DNA of 64,000 nt from Acetobacter sicerae (GTDB lineage: Bacteria; Pseudomonadota; Alphaproteobacteria; Acetobacterales; Acetobacteraceae): contig NZ_JAAABN010000004.1 of the NCBI RefSeq assembly GCF_011516765.1, positions 124,001-188,000 of the forward strand, given 5' to 3'. The position numbers were made by a program, and so were the translations under genes. This document shows, one piece after another, positions 24,760 to 41,513 of the stretch. The notes under the pieces are model-generated. The model did no database searches. It had not been told where the DNA came from and saw only the letters and a program-made list of their open reading frames with translations. Numbering within the stretch: position 1 is the first letter of the stretch; the number at the start of each line of letters is the position of its first letter.

Positions 24760-26298
24760 TTACCCCTTCCTTCCCACCCGCGCCTGCCGGATCACCAACC
24801 CCAAAATCATCAGAAACGCCAGAAACATGAAGCTGCTACTCACACTGAGACTGGCGCTGATCGCTCCCTTGTAAGCTTCCGTCACTTCCACATGGACTTC
24901 CGGCGAAACAGTCCTGATCGCAGCCATTCCTTTTTCCAGAAAAGCCGCAATATCGATTTTTTCGGTCAGATCACTCAGGTTTTTCTGCAAGGTCAGCGCC
25001 ATGACGCCGCCGGAAAGCGCCACACCAAGTGAGCCACCCAACGAGCGGATGAATGACATCATGGCCGTCGCAATGCCGAGCCTGCTGCCGGGCACGGAAT
25101 TCTGGATGAGGACCGTCGCATTCGGCATGCCAATGCCCATGCCCATCCCCAAAGCGCCCAGACTCAGCAGAAAGAACAGGGCCGGAGCCCCATGATGCGC
25201 ACAGAACGCGATCAGACTGAGACCGGTAAATTCAATCCCCACACCAATAACCAGCAGCAGTTCATAACGCTGCGTCTTTGAGGAGATATATCCACCCAGC
25301 ACCGAACTGATCATCATGGTGCCGACCTGTGGCAGCATCATCAGACCGGAGACTTCAGGCGTCTCGCCAAGAACAAGCTGATAATACAGCGGCAGGAAAA
25401 TCATTGACCCCATCATGGCGAATGACATGATACCAGTCGCCGCGACACACACGGAGAAATCCAGAATCCGCAGCAAATCAAGACTGACCAGAGGCTCAGG
25501 CGCGCGCTTCTCCTGTCGTATGAACAGCACCAGAAAGAGCAAGCTGACACCAAAAAGCAGGCCAGCCAGCGGAGAGGTCCATGAGAGCGTTGTGCCGATG
25601 GAATTGAACAGCAGCAGAAAGCCTGCCGTGGCGATACTCAGCAGAGCCGCCCCAAGATAATCAATCTGCGGTTTTCTCCCTGCTTTTCCCGCAGGCAACC
25701 CCAGCATGATCAGGGCGAAGGCGAGCAGACCAACGGGCAGATTGACGAGAAACACCCAGCGCCAGGAAAATGAACTTGTCAGCACACCGCCCAGAAACGG
25801 CCCAGTGACACTGCTGACGGCAAAGGCTCCGGTGAACAGACCCTGATACCGCCCCCTCTGCTGTGGCGGCACGATATCGCCGATGACCGTTTGAGACAGC
25901 GTCATCAGTCCGCCAGCGCCGATCCCCTGAAGCCCCCGGAAGAACACCAGTTGCCACATGCTCTGCGCCACGCCGCACAGAAGTGAGGCAAACAGGAAAG
26001 CGCCGATGCTGAAGGCAAGCAGCGGCCTGCGCCCGAACATGTCCGACAGCTTGCCGTACATGGGGGTGGCGATGGTGGAGGTCAGCATGAACGCCGTGAC
26101 AATCCACGAGATATGCGCCAGCCCACCCAGATCGCTCACGATGGTTGGGAGCGCTGTCGAGACGATGCTCTGATCCAGCGCCGCCATGATCATCGTGAGG
26201 ATAAGGCCAGTAAAGACAAAGACTCGGGTCACAGGTCGGCTGGGGGCTGTGGTCAATGTGTCGGAAGCGGGCTGCACGAAAATTTCCCAGACAGTCAA
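24760..26298 (-). CDS. MFS transporter, DHA2 (EmrB/QacA) family
   Basis: 512 aa with about 14 membrane spans, the number typical of the DHA2 group. Motif A appears as GKLSDMFGRRPLL and motif C-like GPFLGGVL after span 5; the N-terminal MAALDQSIVSTALPTI segment is the family mark. Predicted drug/H+ antiporter exporting toxic compounds; the substrate cannot be inferred. Divergent from the aldehyde dehydrogenase operon with 244 bases between them. Confidence 0.9.
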   Translation of the reverse strand: MTVWEIFVQPASDTLTTAPSRPVTRVFVFTGLILTMIMAALDQSIVSTALPTIVSDLGGLAHISWIVTAFMLTSTIATPMYGKLSDMFGRRPLLAFSIGAFLFASLLCGVAQSMWQLVFFRGLQGIGAGGLMTLSQTVIGDIVPPQQRGRYQGLFTGAFAVSSVTGPFLGGVLTSSFSWRWVFLVNLPVGLLAFALIMLGLPAGKAGRKPQIDYLGAALLSIATAGFLLLFNSIGTTLSWTSPLAGLLFGVSLLFLVLFIRQEKRAPEPLVSLDLLRILDFSVCVAATGIMSFAMMGSMIFLPLYYQLVLGETPEVSGLMMLPQVGTMMISSVLGGYISSKTQRYELLLVIGVGIEFTGLSLIAFCAHHGAPALFFLLSLGALGMGMGIGMPNATVLIQNSVPGSRLGIATAMMSFIRSLGGSLGVALSGGVMALTLQKNLSDLTEKIDIAAFLEKGMAAIRTVSPEVHVEVTEAYKGAISASLSVSSSFMFLAFLMILGLVIRQARVGRKG

Positions 26299-26542
26299 AA
26301 TTCGGCGGCAGACTTACACATAATCCCTTGTGAGAACAGGATCAGGGAAAATCGGACAGGGCGTATTCTGGACGTGTATCTGGCGATGTATCTATCCCGC
26401 TGAAAACAGTTCTCACCAAGAATACCCCTATCTATATTTCAATATATACAGACAAACACAAATAATTTTCCAATAATGAAGCCAGATCGTTTTTCAGGTG
26501 TTATGGTTGATTGGTGCAGCCACAACACTCAAGAGGACTCAC

Positions 26543-27004
26543 ATGCAGACAGTGCGCGTGAATGGGCAGACACATTCGATCGATGTCGATCCCGACACGC
26601 CTCTGCTGTGGGTATTGCGCGACATATTGGGACTGAACGGCACGAAATTCGGATGCGGCATCGCCCAGTGCGGCGTCTGCACTATCCATCTGGATGGTCA
26701 CCCCGTTCGCGCCTGTAACCTGCCTGTCGGCATGATCGGGGAGCGTTCTGTCACCACCATCGAAGGTTTGGACAGTGCCGACCCCATCGTTCACGCCGTA
26801 AAGAAAGCCTGGACAGATCTGGATGTCGTGCAGTGCGGTTACTGCCAGCCCGGACAGGTGATGGCGGCGGTCGGACTGCTGAAAACTGTCCCGGACCCCA
26901 CGGATGAGCAGATCGACAGCGCCATGTCCGGCAATATGTGTCGGTGCGGCACCTACATGCGCATCCGCAAGGCCATCCATCTGGCAGCGGGAGAAACAGC
27001 ATGA
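26543..27004 (+). CDS. 2Fe-2S subunit of periplasmic molybdenum aldehyde dehydrogenase
   Basis: 153 aa from the ATG at 26543, preceded by AGAGGA. Two ferredoxin-type clusters: plant-type ligands in [17 protein letters not shown] and a second domain with QCGYCQPGQ and NMCRCGTY. Small subunit of the xanthine oxidase family of the bipartite IorA/AldF type. It has no signal and would be carried out by the Tat signal of the large subunit. The stop overlaps the next ATG. Counterpart of the small subunit (AldF) of the Acetobacter membrane aldehyde dehydrogenase complex. Confidence 0.92.
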
Positions 27005-29157
27005 CCCGTATGCCCCTCACTACCCGCCGCGCCGCGCTTTTCGGCGGGGGTGGACTGCTGCTGGCGACACTCTGGCCTTCGGCCTCTCCACGCGCGTCCA
27101 CAGGGATGCTGGTGGAAAACGCCACGGCTCCCTTTGCGCCCAATGCCTATATTCGCATTATGCCCGACAACAGCATCACCCTGATCCTGCCCAACATTGA
27201 AATGGGCCAGGGCATTTACACGTCATCCGTGATGCTGATCGCCGAAGAACTCTGCGTCGATCTGGCGCAGATCGAGATCGAGGCGGCACCTCCCGGCAGC
27301 GCCGAAATCACCGGCGGTTCGATGTCGATCATGACCGAGTGGAAGCCCCTGCGTGAAGCCGGAGCAGCGGCAAGAACGGTTCTGATTCAGACCGCCGCCA
27401 CGCGATGGGGTGTTCCGCCTGCAAGCTGCACCGCTGCGTCTGGTGTCGTCACACACACGACGTCCGGTCGGACCTTCACGTTTGGCGAACTGGCGACGGA
27501 TGCCGCAAAACTCCCGCTCCCCAAGGAACCGACACTCAAGGCAGCCTCCGATTACAGTCTGATCGGCAAATCCCAGCATCGTGTCGATAGCGCCATCAAG
27601 GTGAACGGCACTGCAGTTTTCGGCATCGACATAAATATCCCGGATCAGAAAATCGGAACGGTGTCTGCCAGCCCGGTGATAGGCGGCACTCTCCGTAGTC
27701 TGGATCGTGACGCCGCCATGGCCGTTCGGGGCGTTGTGGCTGTTCTGGTCAATGAGCCGCGAGATGCTGTCTGTGTTGTCGGTGACCATTACTGGGCTGC
27801 CCACAAGGGACTACAGGCTCTGCGTCCTGTGTGGAATGAAAACGACAATGCTCACGTCAGCACACAGACGATTTATGATCAGTTGCATGACGGTCTGAAA
27901 GGACCGGCGATCATTCCCAGCCCGAAAGGGGATGCTGACGCCGTCATTGCGAAATCCCATGCCACCTACAGCGCTGTTTACCAGCAGCCCATGCTGGCGC
28001 ATGCGACCATGGAGCCCATCAATTGCACGGCTCATGTTCGCCCGGACGGCTGCGATGTCTGGGTCGGCACGCAGGTCGCTGATCGTGCGCAGGAAACGGC
28101 GGCAGACGTCACCGGCCTGCCCAAGGAAAAGATTGCGGTTCACAGCCAGTATATCGGTGGAGGTTTCGGCCGACGACTGGAACATGAATACATCACGCAG
28201 TGTGTGCAGTTTGCGAAACAGACCAATTATCCTCTGAAGATTGTCTGGAGTCGTGAGGAAGACATCACACGCGACCGCTATCGGCCTGCCTATGTCGATG
28301 AAGTCACAGCCGGTCTTGATGAAAAAGGCCATGTCACGGCCATGAAACATCGCATTGTCGGTCCTGCCGTCGTGGCCCGCTGGGATCCACCGGAGCTGAC
28401 AAAAGATGGATATGACGAGGATCTTTCCGTCGCTACATTGATCACCCCTTACACTTACGATGCCTACAGGCTTGAATTCGCAAGACGGGAAGCGCCGGGT
28501 GTCATCACCGCGTGGTGGCGTGGGGTTGGCGGCACGCGCGGTCTGTTTGTCGTGGAAAATTTCATTGATGAACTTGCTTTAAAAGCCGGGGTTGATCCGG
28601 TTGCCTACCGCCGGGAGCTTGCAAAAGAGAATGCCCGTGCCGTCGCTGTTCTGGACAGAGTGGCCAAGGATTCCGGCTGGAACGACCCTGTGCCGAAAGG
28701 GCGGGCGCGGGGCGTCGCACTTCAGTTCGCCTTTGGCTCCTACATGGCCACTGTTGCGGAAATCGAAATGCCGACACCGGATACAGTCATCATCCATCGC
28801 GTCACGGCTGCAGTGGATTGTGGCCAGGTCGTCAATCCGGATCAGGTGATTTCCCAGATCGAAGGCGGCCTGATCTTTGGGTTCAGCGCGGCGCTCTACA
28901 ACGAGATCACTCTGGAACATGGCCGCGTGCAGGAAAACAATTTCAACACATGGCGTGTGATGCGCATGAACGAAGCCCCACGACGCATTGATGTTCACCT
29001 GATCGCCAGCACGGAAGATCCCGGCGGTATCGGAGAGGTCGGAACAGCGGCAGCCGCTCCGGCGCTGGCCAATGCCATGGCTTCTGCGCAGGGACACCGT
29101 TATCGGACACTCCCTCTGCTTTCCAGCAGGAATCAGGAAAAGGAGACGGCACGATGA
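27001..29157 (+). CDS. Molybdopterin subunit of periplasmic aldehyde dehydrogenase (AldH/IorB type)
   Basis: 718 aa, starting ATG overlapping the previous stop (ATGA). Tat signal [11 protein letters not shown] followed by a hydrophobic stretch. Xanthine-oxidase family large subunit of the cytosine-dinucleotide bicistronic group: [43 protein letters not shown], and the catalytic glutamate in [10 protein letters not shown] (about residue 679). In acetic acid bacteria such enzymes oxidise acetaldehyde and other aldehydes at the periplasmic face; isoquinoline or nicotinate oxidation are alternatives seen elsewhere in the family. The neighbouring amine dehydrogenase favours an aldehyde substrate here. 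Confidence 0.9.
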
Positions 29158-30398
29158 GTCACCACACTGTCTCGCGTTCCTGTTTCGCACTTGCGCTGCT
29201 TGCCGGAACCAGCCTCTTCTCGACTTCCTATGCCGCCCCGGCCTCCTCACTTGAACGGGGTGAATATCTCGCACGCGCCGCAGACTGCGAGGCCTGTCAT
29301 ACGGCGCCGGGTGGCGCGCCTTTCGCTGGCGGTCGTGCTTTCAACGTGCCGGGTATAGGGGTCATCTACTCCCCGAACATCACGCCGGATCCGGAACACG
29401 GAATTGGCCGGTGGACGGACGATGAATTCGTAAAGTCCGTACGAGATGGCGTCTCTCCCAGCTGGAAACATCTCTATCCCGCCATGCCTTATCCGGCCTA
29501 TTCCCGTATGAGCGTGGACGAGGTTAAAGATATGCGAGCATGGCTCGCTACGGTTCCGAAGTCCGCCAATGGTGTTCCAGCCAATCAGGTGAAATTTCCG
29601 TTCTCCATCAGAACTCTGATGGTCGGCTGGAATCTGCTCAATGGTCCGGCCTCGTCCTATCCTGACGATCCACAGAAGTCGCCCGAATGGAACCGGGGAC
29701 GCTATTTGGTCGAAGGGCCCGGACACTGTGCTGACTGCCATTCGCCGCGCACAATGACTTTTGGTCTATCAAAAAGTCAGGCGTTTGCAGGGAATGTCGT
29801 CAACGGCCAGCGCGCCTATAACATCACTTCAGACAAAAACAGCGGTCTGGGCACATGGACCGATCAGGCGCTCTCTGACTATCTCGCAACCGGCCATGCC
29901 GATGGTCACGGCACAGCGTCGGGTGATATGGCGGAAGTCATCAGCTATAGCCTGCGTCATCTGAAACCGGAGGATATTCACGCCATGATTGTCTATCTGC
30001 GTGATGTAAAACCCCAGTCATCCAGCGATGGCGCAGCGCCGGTGCGCCAGCCCACCTCCGGCGATAGCTCCCTGCCCCAGCAGACAAACGGAGCGAAACT
30101 GTTCGCATCGGCCTGTAGCGGCTGTCATCTGCCTGACGGCAGCGGTCGCCAGTCCGCTTTCGCCAGCATTGCCGGAGCCCGCAGTCTGAGCGCCGATAAT
30201 GGCCGTAACCTGCTCCACGTCATCATGAATGGCTCGACCCTGATGACAGACAAGGGAAACCAGCCCATGCCCGCTTTCTCGGGAGGCAATTACAGCCAGA
30301 AAGACCTGAATGACATTGCTGCTTTTGTCATGACGCATTTTACGGAGGCCACACCCTCGGAACACGCCTTCAGCGAGTTTGCAAAGAAACCAGACTGA
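29154..30398 (+). CDS. Tri-haem cytochrome c subunit of aldehyde dehydrogenase
   Basis: 414 aa with a signal peptide (cut near SYA, residue 27). Three haem sites: CEACH (45-49), CADCH (about 191) and CSGCH (about 321). This AldG/AdhB-like cytochrome accepts electrons from the 2Fe-2S subunit and delivers them to ubiquinone or to the cytochrome chain. ATG overlaps the stop of the molybdenum subunit gene, so all three subunits are translationally coupled. The gene converges on the amine dehydrogenase operon with a shared terminator. Confidence 0.93.
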   Translation: MSHHTVSRSCFALALLAGTSLFSTSYAAPASSLERGEYLARAADCEACHTAPGGAPFAGGRAFNVPGIGVIYSPNITPDPEHGIGRWTDDEFVKSVRDGVSPSWKHLYPAMPYPAYSRMSVDEVKDMRAWLATVPKSANGVPANQVKFPFSIRTLMVGWNLLNGPASSYPDDPQKSPEWNRGRYLVEGPGHCADCHSPRTMTFGLSKSQAFAGNVVNGQRAYNITSDKNSGLGTWTDQALSDYLATGHADGHGTASGDMAEVISYSLRHLKPEDIHAMIVYLRDVKPQSSSDGAAPVRQPTSGDSSLPQQTNGAKLFASACSGCHLPDGSGRQSAFASIAGARSLSADNGRNLLHVIMNGSTLMTDKGNQPMPAFSGGNYSQKDLNDIAAFVMTHFTEATPSEHAFSEFAKKPD

Positions 30399-30403
30399 GA
30401 CTT

Positions 30404-30445
30404 TCGGCTCTCTGGAAGTTACTCTTCCGGAGAGCCGATTTCTGT
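30404..30445. terminator. Bidirectional terminator between the two dehydrogenase operons
   Basis: Near-perfect 15 bp stem TCGGCTCTCTGGAAG / CTTCCGGAGAGCCGA (one G-T pair) with a 5 nt loop and a T-rich tail on the plus strand; it sits between the converging tri-haem cytochrome and second MauD-like genes. Confidence 0.85.
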
Positions 30446-30477
30446 TTCTGAAAAGAACTGTTGGCTGAAAGCAGCTA

Positions 30478-31077
30478 TCAGGCTGCCTGAACTTTCTGGC
30501 GCTTACGGTGCGTGATGTAATCCTGCACCGTTGTAAAACCGCTTTCCCAGGCGTTGAGCAGACTTTCAAGATGCTCGCGGCTGTTCACCAGCCCCCGGGA
30601 CAGTATGACGCCTTCTGAAGAAAGCAGGAACGCGGCAGGCAGTTTGTCGACCTCCAGCACGCGCCCAATGGTCGGATCATTGACAAAGTGATCCGCCTTT
30701 ATCCCTGACTGCTGAACAAAACGCTGCTGGACTTCGGGCGCATCATCCCCTGCGAAAACCAGATCCACATGCTCTTTCCGGCAGAAATCCTGTGCAATCG
30801 GAATGATCTTGCGAGAAATAGGGCATGTTGCGGAGACAAACAGCATAAGCGTCGTCTCTCGACTACCTGCCGGACTGAAAGCCGCTCCATTCAGCAAACG
30901 GAACGGGCCAGACGGACAGACGTCGCCCGGCTGGGGGCCTTTCGACCCCGTCAGCGCCCCCGCCGGTGCGATCTCCCTAAAAAGCTGTCTGACCTGACGT
31001 GTCAGACGCCAGGTCACAAAGAGCGTCGCCAGCAGAACCACCGTCAGAAGCACATTGACGCAGATCAGCGCTGTCAT
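30478..31077 (-). CDS. MauD-like thioredoxin-fold protein with CxxS motif
   Basis: 199 aa. N-terminal membrane anchor (VNVLLTVVLLATLFVTW) followed by a periplasmic thioredoxin-like domain. It parallels MauD encoded 3 kb upstream in the same operon (FVSATCPISRKIIPIA versus FVAPECPVCKRVIPIA; VDKLPAAFLLSSEGVI versus INRLPALVLLDERGVI). The active site is CPIS, so the second cysteine is missing. A one-cysteine thioredoxin fold suits an isomerase or a holding role rather than dithiol oxidase/reductase. Last gene of the operon, 24 nt after the porin gene. I infer a part in disulfide maturation of the amine dehydrogenase or its cytochromes. Confidence 0.85.
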   Translation of the reverse strand: MTALICVNVLLTVVLLATLFVTWRLTRQVRQLFREIAPAGALTGSKGPQPGDVCPSGPFRLLNGAAFSPAGSRETTLMLFVSATCPISRKIIPIAQDFCRKEHVDLVFAGDDAPEVQQRFVQQSGIKADHFVNDPTIGRVLEVDKLPAAFLLSSEGVILSRGLVNSREHLESLLNAWESGFTTVQDYITHRKRQKVQAA

Positions 31078-31101
31078 CGTCCGGGCTCCTGTCTGTAGGC
31101 T

Positions 31102-32463
31102 TCAGAATGCCCAGATTGCGTCACAGCTGAACCAGAACATGTTGTTGGTGCCATTGTTCGCATAATTGATGGTCGGATCGTCCGTGGGAGACACACGGTT
31201 GAAAGGCCTTGTTCCATTCAGCGACTTATCCAGACGCAGTTCCGGACGGATGGTCAGACTGCCTTTCGGCAGATGCAGAAACTGCGGACGATAGGCCACA
31301 CCGACCGTCAGTTCACCATAGGTGGTTCCGGCGGCGTAATCGTAAGGATAGGGCCGACCACGCAACTCGTTCACATAAGACATTGTCGAAGTATTGTTGC
31401 CGACCACGCCGCCATTATTGTCGCGGAAGATCTCGCCTCGGACGTTGAGCGTCAACCAGGGATAGAAGTCATGGGCGAAATAGGCCGTGACGCCGTAAAC
31501 ATCGTCCTGAAGATAGTCGTCGTGAAAATACGTGCCGTTGAGAGTAAATGTCGTCGCGTCATTGATTTTGTAGGACGCGATGATGTCGCCGATATATTCC
31601 ATCTCATGATTGGCGTCTCTGCCGATGGCGTACACGCTCTGCTGTGGTCCGACATAGGCAAGAGCGGAAATATCCAGCTTTCCATCCAGAAGGCCGTTGG
31701 ACTGGAAACCGAAATATCCTTTCGGACGACTGTTGTTTTTCGCACCGCCGAATGACGTCGAGTTACCGGCGTTCACACCAAGAATCCAGTCGAAATGGTC
31801 CGCCAGATGGACCGTGGCAGTCACACCGATGACTTCGAACGGCACGATGAAGTCAGACGAGTAATTATAGCTGTAGAAAGGACGCTCCAGCGCATCTGTC
31901 CCTTCCACGCCCTGCATGCCGTACATCTGCCCGATCTGGAGATCGACACCATCCTTTGTGAACCACGGAAGATGCGCATCAACATGCGCCTGCGTGGGCG
32001 CAAACTGGTACATGCCGGTGATGGCCCCGTCAGCCATACCGATGGTCGGATTGAAGCGCGCGTCCGAGCCATACAGGACTTCAAACGTGAAACCGAGCCC
32101 GTATCCGGCGCCGATATCGGAAACCGGATGGGACAGCGTGCCAGTGATCTGGTTAAGGGTCGCGGTATTGGCGCGATCGACATAGGACTGCGCCCAGTTA
32201 CGCCCTGTGTGGGTCCAGGGGTTACCGTTGACACCGGCTTCGACAACAATATGGCCTTCAAGATCGTCAAACCAGCTATGGCTTCCGGGCGGTTGAAGAT
32301 TCACGTCCACCTTGGCTGCATCAGCTTTTTCGGCTTCTGTTTCCTCACCAACCAGCGGACGTCCCGACTCTTCCGGTGTGAGTCTCTCCTGTGCAAAAGC
32401 TGGCAGAGAAACAAGCTGGAGCGCAAAATACGCACCAATGGAAAGACGGGGACGAAAAACCAT
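31102..32463 (-). CDS. Outer membrane beta-barrel porin (BBP2/OmpL-like)
   Basis: 453 aa with signal peptide (cut after PAFA, residue 24), a 35-residue charged linker, and a long series of alternating-hydrophobic strands ending in a C-terminal Phe (DAIWAF), the usual outer-membrane barrel signal. PFYSYNYSSDFIVPFEVIGVTA resembles the putative beta-barrel porin-2 family (the segment around the family QPYYS-type motif). It lies in the amine dehydrogenase operon, 90 nt after a cytochrome c gene. I infer substrate entry for amines; a different ligand is possible. Confidence 0.75.
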   Translation of the reverse strand: MVFRPRLSIGAYFALQLVSLPAFAQERLTPEESGRPLVGEETEAEKADAAKVDVNLQPPGSHSWFDDLEGHIVVEAGVNGNPWTHTGRNWAQSYVDRANTATLNQITGTLSHPVSDIGAGYGLGFTFEVLYGSDARFNPTIGMADGAITGMYQFAPTQAHVDAHLPWFTKDGVDLQIGQMYGMQGVEGTDALERPFYSYNYSSDFIVPFEVIGVTATVHLADHFDWILGVNAGNSTSFGGAKNNSRPKGYFGFQSNGLLDGKLDISALAYVGPQQSVYAIGRDANHEMEYIGDIIASYKINDATTFTLNGTYFHDDYLQDDVYGVTAYFAHDFYPWLTLNVRGEIFRDNNGGVVGNNTSTMSYVNELRGRPYPYDYAAGTTYGELTVGVAYRPQFLHLPKGSLTIRPELRLDKSLNGTRPFNRVSPTDDPTINYANNGTNNMFWFSCDAIWAF

Positions 32464-32553
32464 ACGCGGAACACTCCTTGTCTGACATCATACTGGCTGG
32501 TCAGCGACGTCCCGGTATCAAGAAGATTACAGAGATGAGCGACCGTTTTGTTT

Positions 32554-33048
32554 TTACAGTTTCTTTGCAGTCTTCTGTGCACAGGCCGCCAGAGACCGCT
32601 CGAGGGTCTGACCACGCTGCGCCATGAAATCCGGAACGGACAAAGGTTCTCCCCGCCATTGATGAATCTCGGCTGCCGTATAAGGTCGAAATCCTTTTGG
32701 CAGACTGGTTCCCGCCAGACGGAACATGACAAAATTCATGACATCGGCGAGCGTCTGATCGTCACGGATGAGCGACATCGACACCCCTGGCACGCGGATC
32801 AGGTAGGCGCGTCCTTCATCCGTGCAGGCGAACCCACCGACAGCGTTGCGCAGGGTTGGAACGAAACTGTTCCCTGACACACCCTCAATGCCATGACATC
32901 CGCCACAATGAGACAGATAGGTCACGCTGGTGTGGTCAAGCACAGTGGCGTGCTCCACGGAATCCGCAGCATGGGAAATACCGGACAGGAAGAACCCGCT
33001 TCCTGCAATCAGCATCAGAACCGGAACAGCCCGCATCATGAGAGCCAT
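32554..33048 (-). CDS. Mono-haem cytochrome c with C-terminal extension
   Basis: 164 aa from the ATG at 33048; the frame is open to 33102 and several ATGs compete. Signal peptide ends near GISHA. One haem site, CGGCH, close to the mature N-terminus. Met residues in GVSMSLIRDD and FVMFRLAGTSL are axial-ligand candidates. About 50 residues after the cytochrome core (PYTAAEIHQWRGEPLSVPDF) are not typical of small class I cytochromes. Sixth gene of the amine dehydrogenase operon. Likely redox partner of the dehydrogenase or of the next cytochrome. Confidence 0.8.
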   Translation of the reverse strand: MALMMRAVPVLMLIAGSGFFLSGISHAADSVEHATVLDHTSVTYLSHCGGCHGIEGVSGNSFVPTLRNAVGGFACTDEGRAYLIRVPGVSMSLIRDDQTLADVMNFVMFRLAGTSLPKGFRPYTAAEIHQWRGEPLSVPDFMAQRGQTLERSLAACAQKTAKKL

Positions 33049-33079
33049 TCCGAAAACTGAACGCCGTTGCCCTGCTTTT

Positions 33080-33556
33080 TCAGGGAACAGGATGCGCAGC
33101 ATTCAACTTGTTTCGCTCTTCAAGAACAGCCGCAGGCGTCAGGGAAGACGCACGTTCCTTCTTCACCTCATCGGCGGTGAAGGTCGGCGCAGGCTTTACG
33201 TCGCTGAGAGACGCAACATAGGTCAGAATGGCCGCAATATTCTCGTCACTCTGCGCGCCGAAAGCCGGCATGTAACCCATATACGGATTACCACCCGCCT
33301 TGATCATACCCGACAGACCATTGAGCAGCACGTGCATCACGTAAGCCTTGCCTTCCGGCGTGGAAGCAATGGCGCCGATACGTCCCTTGAGCGGTGGGAA
33401 CTGACCGACAACACCCGCAGCGCTGGCCTGATGGCAAAGGCTGCAATTACCTGTGTAAAGCTGCTGTCCGTCGGCCGCGGCATGCGCCGGACCGGAGACG
33501 GCCACGCCCCCGGCAAGAAGGGCTGCCGCACTCAGGGAAAAGAGAATTTTCTTCAT
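33080..33556 (-). CDS. Mono-haem cytochrome c
   Basis: 158 aa. MKKILFSLSAAALLAGG begins a clear signal peptide (cut near AHA-AA). Single haem site CSLCH and Met ligand candidate in MGYMPAFGAQSDENIAAILTYV, the usual class I cytochrome C-terminal pattern. The open frame runs upstream to 33652 but the ATG at 33556 gives the signal peptide. It follows mauA by 26 nt. The aromatic amine dehydrogenase cluster of Alcaligenes faecalis also has a small periplasmic cytochrome gene right after aauA, so this protein is the best candidate for direct electron acceptor in place of amicyanin. Confidence 0.88.
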   Translation of the reverse strand: MKKILFSLSAAALLAGGVAVSGPAHAAADGQQLYTGNCSLCHQASAAGVVGQFPPLKGRIGAIASTPEGKAYVMHVLLNGLSGMIKAGGNPYMGYMPAFGAQSDENIAAILTYVASLSDVKPAPTFTADEVKKERASSLTPAAVLEERNKLNAAHPVP

Positions 33557-33582
33557 TATCACTACAATCTGCTTCTGGGGTC

Positions 33583-34143
33583 TTACGATGCCTTGCCGAC
33601 CACGGCTGCGGTCGAGCAGTTGTACATCTCCGATGTTCCCGTTCCGAAACACCAGATGATGTCGTTGTTGGCCATCGGGCGATAGGACGGCTGATCGCCA
33701 TCCGTATTGAGGCAGGTCACCTCGTTACAGGAGTCCTGACCACAGCAGTCACGATAGGCAATCATGTAGGAATTGCCATCCTGCGGATTGTAACAGCTGC
33801 CGATCCACGAGGTAGGGGACGGCGCGGTTCCCGGCGGGCATGTATGGGTGCCACCACCGCAGGAAGTGCAGAGATTGCCGTCGATGGCGCAGTAACGCCA
33901 GTAATCGCAGGCCAGATCATCCTTGGCCTGTGCTTTCGCAGCAAACGGTGACTGAGGTCTGGGCTTCGCGGTCGCCGCATCAGCACGGCTGACTGGCAGC
34001 AGCATGAATGCCGGAGCCGCCGCAACAGCGCCACCGACCTTTGTCAGCACATCGCGGCGCGAGGTACGCCCAGCGATCCGCCGAAGAACGCTTTCTGTCA
34101 GACGATCCAGCATTGAACCCTGTTTCTTTTCAGACGGCAGCAT
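33583..34143 (-). CDS. mauA: Amine dehydrogenase light (TTQ) subunit
   Basis: 186 aa with a long twin-arginine type leader (RTSRRDVLTKVGGAV). All key residues of the methylamine dehydrogenase light chain align: Trp113 (SWIGSCYNP) and Trp164 (NDIIWCFG) would form tryptophan tryptophylquinone; Asp132 (AYRDCCG) and Asp88 (AIDG) match Asp76 and Asp32 of the Paracoccus enzyme. Twelve cysteines lie in the mature part, enough for the six disulfides of the family. Sequence is nearer to methylamine than to aromatic amine dehydrogenase (LNTDGDQPSYRP, CYNPQDG). CAGGAG lies eight bases upstream of the ATG at 34143, which overlaps the mauD end by 14 nt. Confidence 0.95.
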   Translation of the reverse strand: MLPSEKKQGSMLDRLTESVLRRIAGRTSRRDVLTKVGGAVAAAPAFMLLPVSRADAATAKPRPQSPFAAKAQAKDDLACDYWRYCAIDGNLCTSCGGGTHTCPPGTAPSPTSWIGSCYNPQDGNSYMIAYRDCCGQDSCNEVTCLNTDGDQPSYRPMANNDIIWCFGTGTSEMYNCSTAAVVGKAS

Positions 34144-34735
34144 GAGAAATCACTCCTGTCTCCACCCGCTCGACTTTCGGAGCTACCGGAACAGTGTCCA
34201 GCAGGTCCTCGATCTGACGGCGTGTATTCACAATATCCTTGACCCGGATGACGCCGCGCTCATCAAGCAGCACCAAAGCAGGCAGACGGTTGATTTGCAG
34301 GACCAGCCCAAGCTCCACTCCCGTCAGAAGCGGAACACCCTGCATCTCAGGGCGGCTGGCCACCATGTCCTGAAGTTCGGGAACAGGACCGTCCCCTACA
34401 AACAAAAACTCGAACCCTCTGGTCGCGGCCACATCACGCGCAATGGGAATAACGCGTTTGCAGACGGGGCATTCGGGCGCCACGAACAGGAGCATCTGGT
34501 AATGCCCCGGTTGCAGGGCGTCTCCGATCATGACCGGCCTGTCTTCCAGCGTGTGCAGAACCAGTCTCGGGACAGTTTGTCCGACATCCAGTCCCGGACG
34601 CGCTTCCTGATCGCCAATCGGCGCGGTCCGTTCATGAAGAACACCAATCTGGCGTGCGAGCGCGAGCAGCGTCACAGCAAGGATCAGCACCAGAACCGTC
34701 AGAAAGCCCTGCCAGATGAGAAGAGCGATCATCAT
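34130..34735 (-). CDS. mauD: MauD, thioredoxin-like maturation protein
   Basis: 201 aa. N-terminal membrane span, then a periplasmic thioredoxin-fold domain with the dithiol motif CPVC (APECPVCKRVIPIA). MauD is needed with MauE for stable, disulfide-bonded light subunit; mutants degrade it. ATG overlaps the mauE stop (ATGA). A paralogue lacking the second cysteine sits at the end of the operon. Confidence 0.93.
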   Translation of the reverse strand: MMIALLIWQGFLTVLVLILAVTLLALARQIGVLHERTAPIGDQEARPGLDVGQTVPRLVLHTLEDRPVMIGDALQPGHYQMLLFVAPECPVCKRVIPIARDVAATRGFEFLFVGDGPVPELQDMVASRPEMQGVPLLTGVELGLVLQINRLPALVLLDERGVIRVKDIVNTRRQIEDLLDTVPVAPKVERVETGVISHAAV

Positions 34736-35277
34736 GCCCGTTCTCCTGTCGCATCACTGAGAGACATATCCGGCAGCACACGCAGCGCCTGCCAGAGCAC
34801 CCACAGAGCCACGCCACAGGCGACGCCCTCAAGCTGGACACTGACTGAAGGCGCCGCTCCAGCCACCGCAGGCAGCAGGGCAGGCACACCACAAACCAGT
34901 GTTCGTAAAACCAGTGACCAGGAAAGCGTCTCGCCTTTCTGACCTGGCGTGCAACCACAGGACAGATCAGTACGCCCCCGCATGACGTTGATACCCATCG
35001 CCAGAGCGAAGACCACCATCAGACCTGCAGCGACGACACCTCCGACGCCCAGTCCAACACCGGACAGCAACATCAGGCCGACAAGCACCTCCGTCACACC
35101 GAGCCCCCATGCCACGGCCTCAAGAGACCACGCAGGCAGAAGCCGGTAGGACGATAGCGTCCCCAGAAAGAGGTCATGTTCCCGGAGCTTGGATACCCCG
35201 GCAACCAGAAACATGATCCCCACACCTCCGGCGCAGAGAGCTGACACTCCACCCATCACGAGAGAGGCGGCATTCAT
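34732..35277 (-). CDS. mauE: MauE, membrane protein for light-subunit maturation
   Basis: 181 aa, DoxX/MauE-like four- or five-span membrane protein. N-terminal FLVAGVSKLREHDLFLGTLSSYRLLP and the cysteine pair in RTDLSCGCTPG after the third span are characteristic of MauE. It is thought to supply or shuttle reducing/oxidising equivalents for MauD. Both ends overlap neighbours by four bases (ATGA with mauB and with mauD). Confidence 0.92.
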   Translation of the reverse strand: MNAASLVMGGVSALCAGGVGIMFLVAGVSKLREHDLFLGTLSSYRLLPAWSLEAVAWGLGVTEVLVGLMLLSGVGLGVGGVVAAGLMVVFALAMGINVMRGRTDLSCGCTPGQKGETLSWSLVLRTLVCGVPALLPAVAGAAPSVSVQLEGVACGVALWVLWQALRVLPDMSLSDATGERA

Positions 35278-36503
35278 CCTTCACCGGGCGCAACCGTGAA
35301 GATCAGCGAACCGCCCAGGGCCTTCATCTTGTGTACCTGTTTGCCGGTTTTCGCATCAAGGATGTAAAAATCGCCCGTATCTTCGTCAGTTGTGAACATC
35401 AGCGGGTGATCATCCTGTGTCACACCAACCATCGGACTAGGCGTTGGCAGGGACATACGGCGAACGCGTTTGTGCGTTTCCGTATCGTAAACCCAGACTT
35501 CCGAACCGCCGTCCTTGTGGCTCCAGAACGGTCCCTTGTGCATCAGCACATACAGTTCATGATTGCTTTTGTGCAGCGCTGACATCTGCCAGCCACCCGG
35601 ACGCCAGGTCACCTCGAAAGGCTTCGACGAGTCCGGCGCCGCCTTCATGCCGGCACCTTCCTGAAGGGACCATGGCTTGCTGACAACAGCATCCGCACCG
35701 AGCTTCGTTTCGTAAACCTTGCCGGTATAGCTGATGAACCAGGCCATACCGTCCTTGGTCACGGACGGGCTCTGTTCAAAGATACCGTCGTGATCGGGCT
35801 CGAAGAAAGCCGCGCTATGCGTCATGGACGGCTTGCCGTCAGCGCCGATGCTGACATTGGCCAGCGTACCGTCAGCGCAGAGCGATGAAAAACCGCTGTT
35901 GCCCCAAGGGTAAATCAACGCGCAACCCGGCACATCAACCGTCTGCGTGACCTTATGGGACGCGGTATCCACCACTTCGACCGCACTGCCCGGGCTCATC
36001 TGGTAAACATAGACATGAGACCCGTCCGCGCTGATCGCGAGGTTATTGCGCTTGGGCGTGACCAGCGCACGGGATGGAAGCTTTTCGTCAGCGACGATCT
36101 TCAGCGTGCTGCTTTCATATTCAGCCAGCAGGTCGTTGCGCTCACCGCGATTACCGCGTTCCCACGTTGTTTCACCAACAAAGAAATGGCTGGCGTCAGG
36201 CGACAGAACGACATTGGGGTTGTAGGCGGCCTGCACCATTCCCAGCAGACGTCCCTTATCGGCGTCCACCACGTAGGCGCGGCCATCCTTGCCATGCTGA
36301 TACGCCGCATCCACAACCAGAAGCGTATGGGGCGACCAGGGAGCAAGCGTTGCAATATCGCTTTGTTCCGTCTGGGGAATGGGTTCGTCTGCCCGCGCCG
36401 AGGCTGTTACTGCAAGAAGAGCGACCCCGCCCAGTAAAGAGCGGAGAATAGCAGCGCGACTGCTCTTCGTATTACGCGAATGCGGGAACGTCATGAGACT
36501 CAT
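35274..36503 (-). CDS. mauB: Amine dehydrogenase heavy (beta-propeller) subunit
   Basis: 409 aa with an N-terminal signal (RAAILRSLLGGVALLAVTASARA). The remainder is a seven-bladed propeller of the Me-amine-dh_H type: ADKGRLLGMVQAAYNPNVVLSPD, LVTPKRNNLAISADGSHVYVY, and the disulfide candidate DVPGCALIYPWGNSGFSSLC. It caps the light subunit in the periplasmic heterotetramer and helps bind the electron acceptor. First gene of the operon; ATG at 36503 or 36494. Upstream lie 192 AT-rich bases, then an IS5-family element, so the native promoter may be partly displaced. Confidence 0.92.
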   Translation of the reverse strand: MSLMTFPHSRNTKSSRAAILRSLLGGVALLAVTASARADEPIPQTEQSDIATLAPWSPHTLLVVDAAYQHGKDGRAYVVDADKGRLLGMVQAAYNPNVVLSPDASHFFVGETTWERGNRGERNDLLAEYESSTLKIVADEKLPSRALVTPKRNNLAISADGSHVYVYQMSPGSAVEVVDTASHKVTQTVDVPGCALIYPWGNSGFSSLCADGTLANVSIGADGKPSMTHSAAFFEPDHDGIFEQSPSVTKDGMAWFISYTGKVYETKLGADAVVSKPWSLQEGAGMKAAPDSSKPFEVTWRPGGWQMSALHKSNHELYVLMHKGPFWSHKDGGSEVWVYDTETHKRVRRMSLPTPSPMVGVTQDDHPLMFTTDEDTGDFYILDAKTGKQVHKMKALGGSLIFTVAPGEG

Positions 36504-36695
36504 TTCTATCGGTTTCGCAATGATTCAGATATGCCTCGCCCGTCGCATTTCCGCAAGACCAATCGTCGTTATCTCCAATTATTTTCGCCAGAGAAACAGA
36601 AACGCCACATCTATAGGTTAATCTGTACAGGTAATATCGAAATATCCGATAGCAACGCCAACATGATCATTTCCCAAGAAAAACCGCCCTTCCTA

Positions 36696-37558
36696 GGGCG
36701 TGTCGTCAGTTAAGCGGGAGGATTATGCCGCTTGTACTCCTGCCTGATGTGTGATGTTTTTTCCCTGTTTCTGGAACAGGGAGAGTGTAAATGCGACGGT
36801 ATGGTCTGAGCGACGGTCAGTGGGAGCGGATAAAAGATCTTCTCCCGGGTCGCGAAGGTCATGTCGGCGGGACGGCTGCTGATAACCGTCTGTTTATCGA
36901 AGCCGTGCTGTATCGTTATCGTGCAGGCATTCCCCGGCGTGACCTGCCTGTCCGCTTTGGGGACTGGAAGAACATGCACCGACGGCTGCATCGCTGGTGT
37001 GAAAGCGGTGTGATTGAACAGATTTTCCGGCATCTGGCTGCTGACCATGACAACGAATACATGATGGTCGACAGCACGATTGTCCGCGTTCACCAGCATA
37101 GCGCAGGCGCCTAAAAAAAAAGGGGGGGGCGGATCAGGCCATCGGCCGATCCCGTGGCGGACTGACTACCAAAACCCATGCCATTGTCGATGCTGCGGGA
37201 AAGGCTGTGGCTCTTTCCCTGACACCCGGGCAAAGGGCGGACATCACAGAAGCAGAGCCATTGCTCGATGAAGTCGATCCCGAGGCCTTCATCGCCGACA
37301 GGGCTTACAACGCTGCTTCCCTCATCGAAAAGCTTGAAGAGCGCGGGATCACACCGGTTGTTCCGTCAAAGAAAAACCGTATCTTTCCACGAAAAACCCG
37401 TTTTTCAATTTATAAAAAACGAAACATCATTGAACGGTTCTTTGCCACACTGAAGCAGTTCAGAGGCATAGCGACACGCTACGATAAGCTGAAATCAACC
37501 TTCATCGCAGCAGTGCAACTCGTCTCCGCTGTCATCGGAGCTAACTGATGACACGCCC
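36696..37558 (+). mobile_element. IS5-family insertion sequence, copy 1
   Basis: 863 bp bounded by imperfect terminal inverted repeats: GGGCGTGTCGTCAGTTAA at the left and the complement of GGGCGTGTCATCAGTTAG at the right. It carries a split transposase gene on the plus strand. Left flank ends in TA, right flank begins with CA, so no direct target duplication borders this copy. Its first approximately 100 bp are identical to the outer end of copy 2 (39162-39973), which is inverted. Confidence 0.9.
36791..37548 (+). pseudogene. IS5-family transposase, frameshifted
   Basis: The first frame (36791-37114) encodes 107 aa: the MRRYGLSDGQWERIKDLLPGR start and first catalytic Asp in MVDSTIVRVHQH, then hits TAA at 37112-37114. 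The rest continues in the -1 frame with the second Asp (FIADRAYN) and the Glu (NIIERFFATLKQF). The junction is a run of nine A and eight G. Several IS5 groups use a programmed -1 frameshift at such a site, but here the stop codon precedes the A-run, so the copy is probably inactive. Confidence 0.85.
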
Positions 37559-37948
37559 CAGGTCTTGCGAATCTGTCTCTGATGTAAACAAAGCGCCGCT
37601 CGAAGTGGTTAATGCTTTGTTCACTCCTTCCACCATCGCTGGTGTAATCGCAGAGCTGCCTCCTTTTACACCAATGTTTTGTTCAATCGTATTGACTTGA
37701 GATTCTGCAAGACCAGATTCGCTTCGTGTGTTTTCGAGCAGTGAATTAAATTCGCTTCTAACGGTTTGGGCATCAGTTCCCGCAGCGGCTCCGGATGCAT
37801 CGCTATGTGCCCCAAAATCATACTGTGTGAGTCCGACTGAATAACCGCTTGTGCCTGCATTGGCCAAACTCAATTCGTTTGCTGGTGTGTTTTCATTGAG
37901 TTCGATGGCGTTTGACACCATTTCTCGAAGAGTCAGGATCGTCGCCAT
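37541..37948 (-). CDS. Truncated putative type I secretion cargo, lysozyme-like N-terminal part
   Basis: 135 aa, of which the last five (GRVIS) are encoded by the terminal repeat of IS copy 1; the native 3' end is lost. No signal peptide. Gly/Ser/Thr/Ala-rich, acidic, with SLANAGTSGYSVGLTQYDFGAH near residues 27-48; this SGYSxGxxQxDxG pattern reminds me of lysozyme-like secreted effectors, but that is recalled resemblance only. It begins two bases after the secreted 297 aa gene and, with the HlyD fragment before that, forms a type I secretion-type operon. It may therefore be the exported substrate. Confidence 0.5.
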   Translation of the reverse strand: MATILTLREMVSNAIELNENTPANELSLANAGTSGYSVGLTQYDFGAHSDASGAAAGTDAQTVRSEFNSLLENTRSESGLAESQVNTIEQNIGVKGGSSAITPAMVEGVNKALTTSSGALFTSETDSQDLGRVIS

Positions 37949-37950
37949 AA

Positions 37951-38844
37951 TTACTCGCCCTTTCCAGAAAGGATATTTTTATTTGCTTCCGAAATTGCTT
38001 GTTGAGGAGATAAAATTCCTTTCGTCAGGTATTTGAACGGTAGTGCCACATCTTTTTCAGGAATTGGAAGCAGAGCTCCATAGCGTCTCCACTCGCTTTT
38101 CATGTCAATCTTTCCAGACAGTCCGGAGTAGAAATAATTTTTTTTCATCACGATGATTTCTGATGGGTCGTTATTCTTGACAATGACCTTATCTCCAACG
38201 ACTATGAATTCAGGGACAGCTGAAGTTAAGTCGCTTGTGTATGTTGACACTGTTGAAGTTATACCACAAGAGAACTCAGCATCGTTGAATTTCTTTCCCG
38301 GGGTCCAGGTTGAGAATGTAAAATAGATTCCAAGATTTTTGTTGTCTTTAAAAAAAACTTCTGGCTGAAACGGCCATGCGCACCGCCGCGAATAAGAACT
38401 ATTGAATGTAATGACCGCATCATTGTAACTTACAGTGTGAACCGGAGAAAAAATGGACTCAATGGGTTCAGAGCGAGTAAGTTTATTTTTATTTAAAAAA
38501 TGAAGCTCTTCTTTGTTTGAGTTGATTAAAATCTTTGTCATTCCTTTATTTAATAATTTTCCTGTTTCGAGATCAATGTAGAAACCCTGCATTTGGGCGA
38601 TTGTAGCTCCTTCCATAATAAGTGCGACTGCCTGATGTGCTGGTCCTTCGTAGATTGATAATATGCGACCTTTGGGATCGGTCGAGTGGTAAAAAGTTGC
38701 TCTCTCACAATCTGGACCGAGAGCAGCTCCAACCTTGCGGATAATGGCCGCATGTGTCGGATGCGCTTGTAGAATAAAAAATGTTGTGTAAAATAAACAA
38801 ATATTATTTATTTTTCGTCTAGTGTTTTTTATGTTATAATTCAT
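37951..38844 (-). CDS. Secreted hypothetical protein, AT-rich island
   Basis: 297 aa with a signal peptide (LFYTTFFILQAHPTHA, cut near residue 32). Mature part is soluble, with no recognised domain; four cysteines (DCERA, RRCAWP, FSCGIT and the preprotein) could form disulfides. Much more AT-rich than the chromosome around it. It lies 37 nt after a HlyD-type adaptor gene end and 2 nt before the cargo-like gene. A periplasmic partner or immunity factor for the cargo is a guess from position only. Confidence 0.65.
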   Translation of the reverse strand: MNYNIKNTRRKINNICLFYTTFFILQAHPTHAAIIRKVGAALGPDCERATFYHSTDPKGRILSIYEGPAHQAVALIMEGATIAQMQGFYIDLETGKLLNKGMTKILINSNKEELHFLNKNKLTRSEPIESIFSPVHTVSYNDAVITFNSSYSRRCAWPFQPEVFFKDNKNLGIYFTFSTWTPGKKFNDAEFSCGITSTVSTYTSDLTSAVPEFIVVGDKVIVKNNDPSEIIVMKKNYFYSGLSGKIDMKSEWRRYGALLPIPEKDVALPFKYLTKGILSPQQAISEANKNILSGKGE

Positions 38845-38881
38845 TGTTTATTCCAAACAAATAAATGTTCGCACTTCATAA

Positions 38882-39161
38882 TTATCTTTCTCTCCCCGTA
38901 TCTTGCACATATCTCTGGATTGGCGACAGGAGATAGAAGATCACTCTGCGCTTTCCGATTGCAATTCCGGCGGTGACGGCCATGCCCGGTCGCAAAGGAG
39001 CGACGCCGACCTCGATGGGAATATCCGTTTTGTCCAGTGTGACCTGCGCAACATAACCACTACCTTCTCCTCCATCGAGATCTTCCTCAGACCCGGCACC
39101 ATTCTGCTTTCCGCCACTTCTGCTTACGGCGTCTGGATCATTGAGCGCCTCAACAGTTTCA
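38882..39161 (-). pseudogene. HlyD-family type I secretion adaptor, C-terminal fragment
   Basis: Open frame of 92 codons, entering from IS copy 2 at 39161 and ending with TAA at 38882-38884. The peptide contains GYVAQVTLDKTDIPIEVG, LRPGMAVTAGIAIGKRR and then VIFYLLSPIQRYVQDTGRER, the characteristic C-terminus of HlyD/PrtE-type periplasmic adaptor subunits (PGMxVTAxIxxGxRxxxxYLLSP). The N-terminal three quarters, including the membrane anchor and coiled coil, are missing. The matching ABC transporter is not in the window. Confidence 0.88.
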
Positions 39162-39973
39162 GGGTGTGTCGTCAGTTAATTCCAATGATGGCGGAGACAA
39201 ATTGCCCGGCTGCGAGGAAAGTTGACTTCAGCTTGTCATATCATGTTGCAATACCTCCAAACTGTTTAAGTCTGGCGAAGAAGCGTTCGATGATTTTCCT
39301 TTTTTTATAAAGCGAGGAGAGGATTTTCCTTGGATGGCGTCGGTTTCTCCTTGATGGAATAACCGGTGTGATCTGCCGTTCTTCAAGCTTTTCGATAAGC
39401 GGATCAGCATCATACGCCTTGTCGGCGATAAAGGTTTCGGGATCGACTTCATCCAGAAGGGTATCTGCTTCGGTGATGTCGGCGCTTTGTCCTGGTGTCA
39501 GCGAAAGAGTCACGACCTTTCCCGCAGCATCGACAGTGGCATGGATTTTCGTGGTCAGGCCGCCCCGGGACCGTCCGATAGCCTGATCCGCACTCCTTTT
39601 TTACGGGCACCCGCGCTGTGCTGGTGAGCCCGGACAATCGTGCTGTCGATCATCATGTATTCATTGTCGCGATCGGCGGCCAGATGCCGGTGCACGTTCT
39701 TCCAGTCCCCAAAGGAGACAGGCAGGTCACGCCAGGGAATGCCTGCGCGATAACGATACAGCACGGCTTCGATAAACAGACGGTTATCCGCAGCAGTCCC
39801 GCCGACATGACCTTCGCGACCCGGGAGAAGATCTTTTATCCGCTCCCACTGACCATCGCTCAGACCATACCGTCGCATTTACACTCTCCCTGTTCCAGAA
39901 ACAGGGAAAAAACATCACACATCAGGCAGGAGTACAAGCGGCATAATCCTCCCGCTTAACTGACGACACGCCC
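39162..39973 (-). mobile_element. IS5-family insertion sequence, copy 2 (inverted, degenerate)
   Basis: 812 bp in opposite orientation to copy 1. Right end is the complement of GGGCGTGTCGTCAGTTAA, identical to the left end of copy 1 for about 100 bp; left end GGGTGTGTCGTCAGTTAA has one change from it. 51 bp shorter than copy 1, explained by a 17-codon gap in the transposase. Inner flank ends CA, outer flank begins TA. Confidence 0.9.
39172..39878 (-). pseudogene. IS5-family transposase, degenerate
   Basis: First frame from the ATG at 39878 reads MRRYGLSDGQWERIKDLLPG as in copy 1. Then 17 codons between KNVHR and HLAAD are deleted. The slippery site is CGT followed by six A and GG, without the early stop of copy 1, allowing a -1 frameshift. 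In the second frame the codon after GGIAT is TGA where copy 1 has Arg, cutting off the last 23 or so residues. Three defects make it almost certainly inactive. Confidence 0.85.
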
Positions 39974-41313
<1,340 letters not shown>

Positions 41314-41337
41314 TCGGGCTTATGTAATCGGGGCAAC

Positions 41338-41370
41338 GTATCGGCAGCCGCAATTCCGTCTGCCGATACT
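41338..41370 (+). terminator. Likely hemB terminator
   Basis: 10 bp inverted repeat GTATCGGCAG / CTGCCGATAC around a 12 nt loop, 25 nt after the hemB stop, followed by TGTCATTTTA. Probable intrinsic terminator with a weak T-run. Confidence 0.6.
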
Positions 41371-41513
41371 GTCATTTTACAGTGATGAAATCGCAACACT
41401 CCAAAAATATAAACACAACCAAAAACACATAATGCAAACAAAATCAGTCACTTAAAAATACACAACCTCTGTGACGCTTTTAATCACAATGTAACTACGC
41501 TGATACATGTGGC

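Follow-up and report, generated by a model that had tools for sequence, protein, structure and literature searches.

A 64,000-nucleotide stretch of the Acetobacter sicerae genome (hereafter the window, in whose coordinates all positions are given) carries a minus-strand operon that runs from 36503 down to 30478. It is predicted to encode an amine dehydrogenase with the cofactor tryptophan tryptophylquinone (TTQ). The genes follow in the order mauB-mauE-mauD-mauA-cytA-cytB-porin-mauD2, and mauB, mauE, mauD, and mauA overlap successively (Table 1). In the textbook methylamine case, TTQ is finished by the enzyme MauG. Here, we tentatively propose that the second cytochrome of the operon, the product of cytB, may stand in MauG's place.

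Table 1. Features of the mau operon and of the operon convergent with it.
Feature	Position	Strand	Basis
mauB-like amine dehydrogenase heavy chain, 409 aa	35274..36503	-	PF06433 (Me-amine-dh_H), 192 bits
mauE, predicted membrane protein for light-chain maturation, 181 aa	34732..35277	-	PF07291, 84 bits
mauD, thioredoxin-like, CPVC motif, 201 aa	34130..34735	-	TIGR02661, 129.5 bits (cut-off of 188.6 not reached)
mauA-like light chain, both TTQ tryptophans, 186 aa	33583..34143	-	PF02975 (Me-amine-dh_L), 167 bits
cytA, c552-type class I cytochrome c, Met ligand (YMPAFG)	33080..33556	-	PF00034 (Cytochrom_C), 46 bits
cytB, c552-like mono-haem cytochrome c without the Met-ligand loop	32554..33102	-	profile, Foldseek, and loop alignment
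BBP2-type beta-barrel porin, 453 aa	31102..32463	-	PF07642, 144 bits
mauD2, MauD paralogue, CPIS replacing CXXC, 199 aa	30478..31077	-	TIGR02661, 118.8 bits (below the cut-off of 188.6)
Terminator-like hairpin, 15 pairs, between the two convergent operons	30404..30438	+	hairpin scan
Putative 2Fe-2S subunit of the Mo-type aldehyde dehydrogenase encoded convergently	26498..27004	+	reading of the translation alone
Molybdopterin subunit of the same Mo-type aldehyde dehydrogenase	26938..29157	+	PF02738/PF20256
Tri-haem cytochrome c subunit of the same Mo-type complex	29154..30398	+	PF00034, 73 bits; three CXXCH

The mechanical open reading frame (ORF) of cytA extends to 33652; the ATG at 33556 was chosen as the likelier start.

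The light chain passes the NCBIfam cut-off of TIGR02659 narrowly (197.5 vs. 196.85), and the heavy chain fails the equivalog of the amicyanin-type methylamine dehydrogenase (MADH), TIGR02658, with a score of 198.4 vs. a cut-off of 454.45. The residues W113, W164, and D132 of the window protein are invariant across 97 aligned light chains; we assign them to beta-Trp57, beta-Trp108, and Asp76 of MADH. Twelve cysteines are present, two of which (positions 95 and 139) are retained in 85 of the 97 aligned chains. Exactly one PF02975 gene was found in the genome. We infer that the enzyme is a TTQ amine dehydrogenase in which W113 and W164 would form the cofactor.

By both scores and phylogeny, the enzyme is nearer to MADH than to aromatic amine dehydrogenase (AADH). 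The light chain scores 180 bits to a MADH precursor and 142–144 bits to five mature MADH chains vs. at most 127.5 bits to AADH, and the heavy chain scores 157–162.5 bits to MADH (best 162.5) vs. at most 141.7 bits to AADH; the exceptions are the MADH entries 1mda (light chain, 121 bits) and 1mae (heavy chain, 85.5 bits), which score below AADH. On a light-chain tree, built quickly, without bootstrap and without an inferred root, the window protein falls within the same supported clade of 57 rows as the Paracoccus/Methylobacterium type of MADH. The nearest light-chain record is that of Acetobacter sp. UBA5411 (98%). In the heavy-chain alignment, Tyr occupies the position of the Phe in the MADH motif 'gFlPN', a residue that we take to have a role in substrate specificity. 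The first-pass annotation of this DNA had described the overlapping mauB-E-D-A genes, the two cytochromes, the porin, and the MauD paralogue, as well as both TTQ tryptophans, the catalytic Asp, and the twelve cysteines, and it had placed the light chain closer to MADH. Coordinates, family models, alignment, and tree all agree with this description.

The two cytochromes of the operon

The two cytochromes c, listed side by side in the first-pass annotation, are by sequence unlike each other, and the second has no Met-ligand loop, a difference that had been overlooked. The cytA product aligns with Thermus cytochrome c552 over nearly its full length, including the Met loop, with a score of 96 bits. 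For cytB, no Pfam or NCBIfam model matched at an E-value of 0.001, and no match to the CCP_MauG family or to MauG structures was obtained. A profile of 38 cytB members does match Thermus c552, in two pieces (E-value of 2e-23), with the Met loop skipped. The AlphaFold2 model of cytB, constructed without haem, has a mean predicted local distance difference test score of 85, with 121 of 182 residues at 90 or above, and its top Foldseek matches are c552 structures with weak E-values (best 5e-3). The cytB protein looks like the same c552 fold as in cytA, with the Met loop cut short.

When cytA and cytB proteins were aligned together, all 24 cytA sequences had the Met ligand, while the corresponding column is gapped in all 81 cytB proteins. 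The loop itself is 24–25 residues long in the 24 cytA sequences and seven residues long in 81/81 cytB sequences; two cytB ORFs without a full CXXCH motif (the second copy in L014 and the one in L134) were left out of this count. Loss of a Met-ligand loop is expected to lower the redox potential. It also means that cytB may hold an open haem capable of reacting with peroxide or oxygen. Arg98, Asn123, and the other conserved cytB residues are also found in the c552 sequence; therefore, their conservation proves nothing about catalysis by cytB.

When 240 genomes were searched with the cytB profile, nine matches of 135–177 bits were obtained, all beside mauA, with the remainder at 37 bits or below; seven of these nine genomes had supplied sequences to the profile. 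The suggestion that cytB is a general cytochrome is not supported by this distribution.

A second, divergent mauB-mauA-cytB unit without its own mauE and mauD was observed at six loci, within 10 kb of the main operon: L011 (17339–19706), L014 (2870–5410), L018 (3023–5452), L019, L020, and L023. Four of these belong to Komagataeibacter and two to Acetobacter.

Gene plans around mauA

PF02975 proteins over the cut-off were found in 12 of 398 genomes sampled from the phylum, 12 of 385 from the class, 13 of 369 from the class of G058, and 61 of 298 from the family of G058. These samples share genomes; that of the window is included in both the phylum and class samples. Further sources were 38 genome-contig loci found by similarity and 30 plasmid records, of which 16 were fetched (six of the 15 labelled as amicyanin-type mauA and ten of the other 15). 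In total, 96 mauA genes scoring above 150 bits, from 93 loci, were classed by their neighbours. Before counting, the mauA genes of L068 (48 bits) and L163 (112 bits) were dropped as falling below the limit, as was the contig-cut first mauA of L023, which is followed by cytA and cytB.

The classing separates two gene plans. There are 83 mauA genes with cytB, ten with mauF/mauG/mauJ, three with neither, and none with both, so that cytB accompanies 83 of the 86 mauA genes that have no mauF/G/J. The G691 genome contains one cluster of each plan. All 18 additional clusters hand-picked from the 61 positive genomes of the G058 family, which are outside the tree and the loop count, have cytB as well. 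On the light-chain tree, the mauF/G/J type forms a single clade with a Shimodaira–Hasegawa-like approximate likelihood ratio test (SH-aLRT) value of 100; the unrooted tree is compatible with a switch between the plans in either direction. Among the 38 loci from three evenly drawn genome samples, 31 have cytB, four have mauF (L114, L160, L162, and L163), and three have neither; on these numbers, the textbook plan with MauG seems to be less common in genomes than the cytB plan. The plasmid records lean the opposite way, with 15 of 30 labelled as amicyanin-type mauA. The mauF clusters L040, L160, L162, and L163 encode a cytochrome with seven CXXCH motifs; L040 and L162, both among the ten classed above, have mauF and mauJ, and no mauG was seen on the contig in L040, L162, or L163, the last of which is cut within mauA.

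ORFs within 7.5 kb of mauA were clustered for 38 thinned loci picked for cytB and for the ten mauF/G/J loci. Common to both plans are mauA, mauD, mauB, and mauE (38, 37, 36, and 34 of the 38 cytB-plan loci, respectively). Beyond cytB, no plan-specific family occurs in more than ten of the 38 thinned cytB loci. Two unlabelled ORF groups are widespread (32 and 30 of the 38) and are both present in 10/10 mauF/G/J loci; hence, they are not plan-specific, and we take them to be antisense ORFs of mau genes. The cytochrome group also has members in three of the ten mauF/G/J loci, taken here as other cytochromes or overlong ORFs.

The cytB plan also takes in AADH-like enzymes, and many of its clusters have no linked cytA. 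AADH likewise carries TTQ. One light chain of the survey (G1127; L240, 9813–10379) is 99% identical to the aau light chain of a Pseudomonas aeruginosa RW109 plasmid, which suggests recent transfer.

These data bear on the main rival explanation, according to which cytB is a dedicated electron partner of the dehydrogenase and no maturase, TTQ being formed in some other way. A class I-like cytochrome c adjoining a dehydrogenase would suit this role; the second mauB-mauA-cytB units keep cytB while lacking their own E and D genes, and the frequent absence of a linked cytA points the same way. Yet the Met-ligand loop is gone in every cytB of the alignment, which would be odd in a carrier of high potential. 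Where a Met-bearing cytA is present, in some clusters including that of the window, it is the obvious acceptor. The AADH-like clusters, moreover, keep cytB although AADH uses azurin. We regard the electron-partner explanation as less likely than a maturase role, but as the strongest of the alternatives.

Search for MauG and other TTQ-forming factors

The first-pass annotation had noted the absence of mauG, mauF, and amicyanin genes from the operon and attributed TTQ formation to a factor that is either unlinked or of another kind. The absence is borne out: no mauG, mauF, mauJ, or amicyanin gene was found among the ORFs of 26000–42000, ten of which were searched against family models (amicyanin was not searched for genome-wide). 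In the near relatives L004–L007, mauF, mauJ, mauG, and amicyanin are likewise not linked. A genome-wide search with Paracoccus MauF returned no match, a weak negative given that an empty answer is uninformative.

A genome-wide search for MauG relatives did reveal two genes of the PF03150 (CCP_MauG) family, both unlinked to the mau operon. The first encodes a tri-haem peroxidase (best PDB match 9qdt, 432 bits) and the second a BthA-like protein (best PDB match 6nx0, 199 bits). They were compared with eight mau-linked di-haem proteins (L122–L125, L136, L137, L114, and L160). To seven of these, the two unlinked proteins are 24–32% identical, whereas the tri-haem protein shares 45% identity with the peroxidase-like protein linked in L160. 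On these comparisons, a MauG hidden elsewhere in the genome was judged improbable and set aside. The mau-linked proteins themselves fall into lineages: those of the Paracoccus type share 72–85% mutual identity, those of Methylobacterium, Indioceanicola, and L114 share 40–56% with each other and about 30% with the Paracoccus type, and the L160 protein is nearer to peroxidases.

One of the unlinked proteins might nevertheless do MauG's job. The BthA-like protein aligns best to BthA, for which a Tyr ligand like that of MauG and a stable bis-Fe(IV) state are described (PMC6405878). The same source places the BthA gene beside a phosphatase gene, outside any mau operon (PMC6405878), which speaks against such a task. 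At L003 (G000:C1:94817), a BthA-like di-haem gene stands at the end of an apparent phosphoesterase ORF, the sort of arrangement reported there for Burkholderia (PMC6405878).

Across 56 genomes with the cytB plan, at least one PF03150 gene is present in 37. Two genomes of this plan, G204 and G386, encode unlinked proteins that share 53% and 59% identity, respectively, with Paracoccus MauG. In L204 (8528–14300), the gene for the 53% protein forms one same-strand run with a second di-haem gene and an apparent imelysin-family gene. No PF03150 gene was detected in the other 19 of the 56 (5/19, 7/19, and 7/18 by sample), among them the single-contig genomes G190, G058, G416, and G1248, as well as G404 and G406, for which completeness is not given. 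The same search recovers the mau-linked genes of G691 and G819. In Acetobacter pomorum, A. syzygii, and A. peroxydans, where the operon is present, the tri-haem peroxidase is the sole member of the family, and a relative of this peroxidase is also found in G295, a genome in which the search for a light-chain gene turned up nothing but a broken copy. As a general route, an unlinked di-haem MauG is therefore unlikely, though it may serve some species, and for the proteins of the present genome we consider the role very improbable. The possibilities raised in the first-pass annotation are thereby narrowed: an unlinked di-haem MauG has lost ground, and cytB is the linked candidate. The condition that was to refute that annotation, a mauG or mauF gene elsewhere in the genome, applies only in part, through the two unlinked di-haem-peroxidase-like genes.

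A flavoprotein was also considered as a substitute. Members of the Trp_halogenase family, which we take to be the family of QhpG and LodB, score above 100 bits in three of 20 genomes (G259, G649, and G406), and on this count the substitute was rejected only as a close relative. A wider alternative is that TTQ assembles by itself or with an unlinked factor of another kind, cytB being employed elsewhere, for example, in redox housekeeping of the light chain. Remote flavoprotein matches in some genomes are compatible with this, and the first hydroxylation in MADH is considered autocatalytic (PMC7876137). This alternative would, however, give no reason why cytB is so closely and exclusively linked to mauA, and we find it improbable.

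Proposed function and known systems

According to the favored reading, to which we assign a probability of roughly 0.48, the operon encodes a TTQ amine dehydrogenase with cytA as the acceptor and cytB finishing TTQ in MauG's place. The periplasmic enzyme would convert a primary amine into an aldehyde and ammonia. MauE and MauD would assist the folding and disulfide bonding of the exported light chain in the periplasm. The cytB protein, with an accessible haem and peroxide or oxygen, would then oxidize both tryptophans, carrying out the oxygenation and cross-linking that constitute MauG's step. In the mature enzyme, electrons would pass from TTQ to cytA, which would suit the cytochrome acceptor suggested in the first-pass annotation, and on to an oxidase, and the aldehyde would be converted into an acid, probably by the convergently encoded Mo-type aldehyde dehydrogenase.

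The case for cytB as a maturase is built on elimination and linkage, and several points weigh against it. The proposed link between cytB and TTQ comes from sequence comparison, and MauG needs two haems where cytB has one. The remnant cytB loop is variable and contains some Met in 29 of the 81 proteins (PGVSMSL in Acetobacter), so that an alternative haem ligand is possible. Three mauBA pairs are without an accompanying cytB; they are second copies in G615 and G866, each of which has a cytB cluster elsewhere. The six second units without E and D fit either role of cytB, maturase or specific electron partner, equally well. The main weakness is that the confinement of mauF/G/J to one clade makes the exclusivity of the plans one evolutionary switch and not 93 independent events, and the overlap between the cytB profile and the genomes searched with it, given above, tells in the same direction. 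Finally, weak Trp_halogenase matches (45 bits or below) exceed the Pfam cut-off in nine more of the 20 genomes, so that a remote flavoprotein may yet take part.

A broader form of the proposal, held still more tentatively, is that cytB represents a new mono-haem TTQ-forming enzyme that would serve most of the sampled TTQ amine dehydrogenases, including AADHs, and that it was exchanged once with MauF/J/G, in either direction. How TTQ forms without MauG has been a question from the first description of a mauG-less aau cluster; the present analysis narrows this question to one linked gene, cytB. In a literature search whose coverage omits most subscription papers, no cytochrome proposed in MauG's place was found, nor were the dichotomy of gene plans and the Met-less cytochrome. 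If the proposal is true, a small protein with one haem would perform the multi-electron oxidation that takes MauG a pair of coupled haems, and acetic acid bacteria would gain a periplasmic route from amine to acid.

The plus-strand operon encoding the molybdopterin aldehyde-dehydrogenase-like complex (26498–30398) is convergent with the mau operon. Of 37 Acetobacteraceae/Novosphingobium loci, 31 have a relative of its Mo subunit near mau, as do one of 59 other cytB-plan loci and none of the ten mauF/G/J loci; the Novosphingobium copies are only 32–34% identical and are positioned upstream of mauB instead. Porin relatives occur in 14 of the same 37 loci and in none of the 59 or the ten. All 18 proteins of the mauD2 class, from Acetobacteraceae loci, have a CXXS motif, and in the window, the CXXC mauD is retained alongside. 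The hairpin scan revealed six terminator-like sites vs. 6.3 expected by chance, the one between the two operons having the longest stem. No site was found upstream of mauB in the promoter scan. Two apparent copies of one insertion sequence in opposite orientation (36700–37560 and 39241–39878) lie upstream of mauB; in both, the transposase is split into two ORFs, and a long A/G run marks the split in the first copy.

Judged by its sequence, the operon combines a mau-like enzyme with an aau-like plan, in agreement with the first-pass annotation, and the aau plan without mauG is already known. The aau cluster of Alcaligenes faecalis reportedly has the mauB-mauE-mauD-mauA (BEDA) plan without mauG. 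This cluster was not found under its name in our searches; the G1211 light chain is nearest to AADH (156 bits) but not identical. The likeness lies in BEDA followed by one or more small cytochromes, with no mauG/F/J, and the copy on the P. aeruginosa RW109 plasmid has the same BEDA-cytA-cytB arrangement. The difference is that the light chain of RW109 is nearest to AADH, whereas the window enzyme is nearer to MADH, and that the window adds the porin, the CXXS MauD, and the neighboring Mo aldehyde dehydrogenase. With the mau cluster of Paracoccus and Methylobacterium, the operon shares homologous B, E, D, and A genes and light chains of one clade; however, it has no linked mauF, J, G, M, N, or amicyanin gene and has two cytochromes instead. 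Among relatives with a solved structure, Thermus thermophilus c552 comes nearest to both cytA and cytB, but cytB lacks the stretch of 17–18 residues that bears the Met in cytA and c552. Compared with MauG and BthA, the task proposed for cytB would be that of MauG, the oxidation of tryptophans in the light chain, whereas cytB is a mono-haem protein that matches neither the CCP_MauG family nor the MauG structures.

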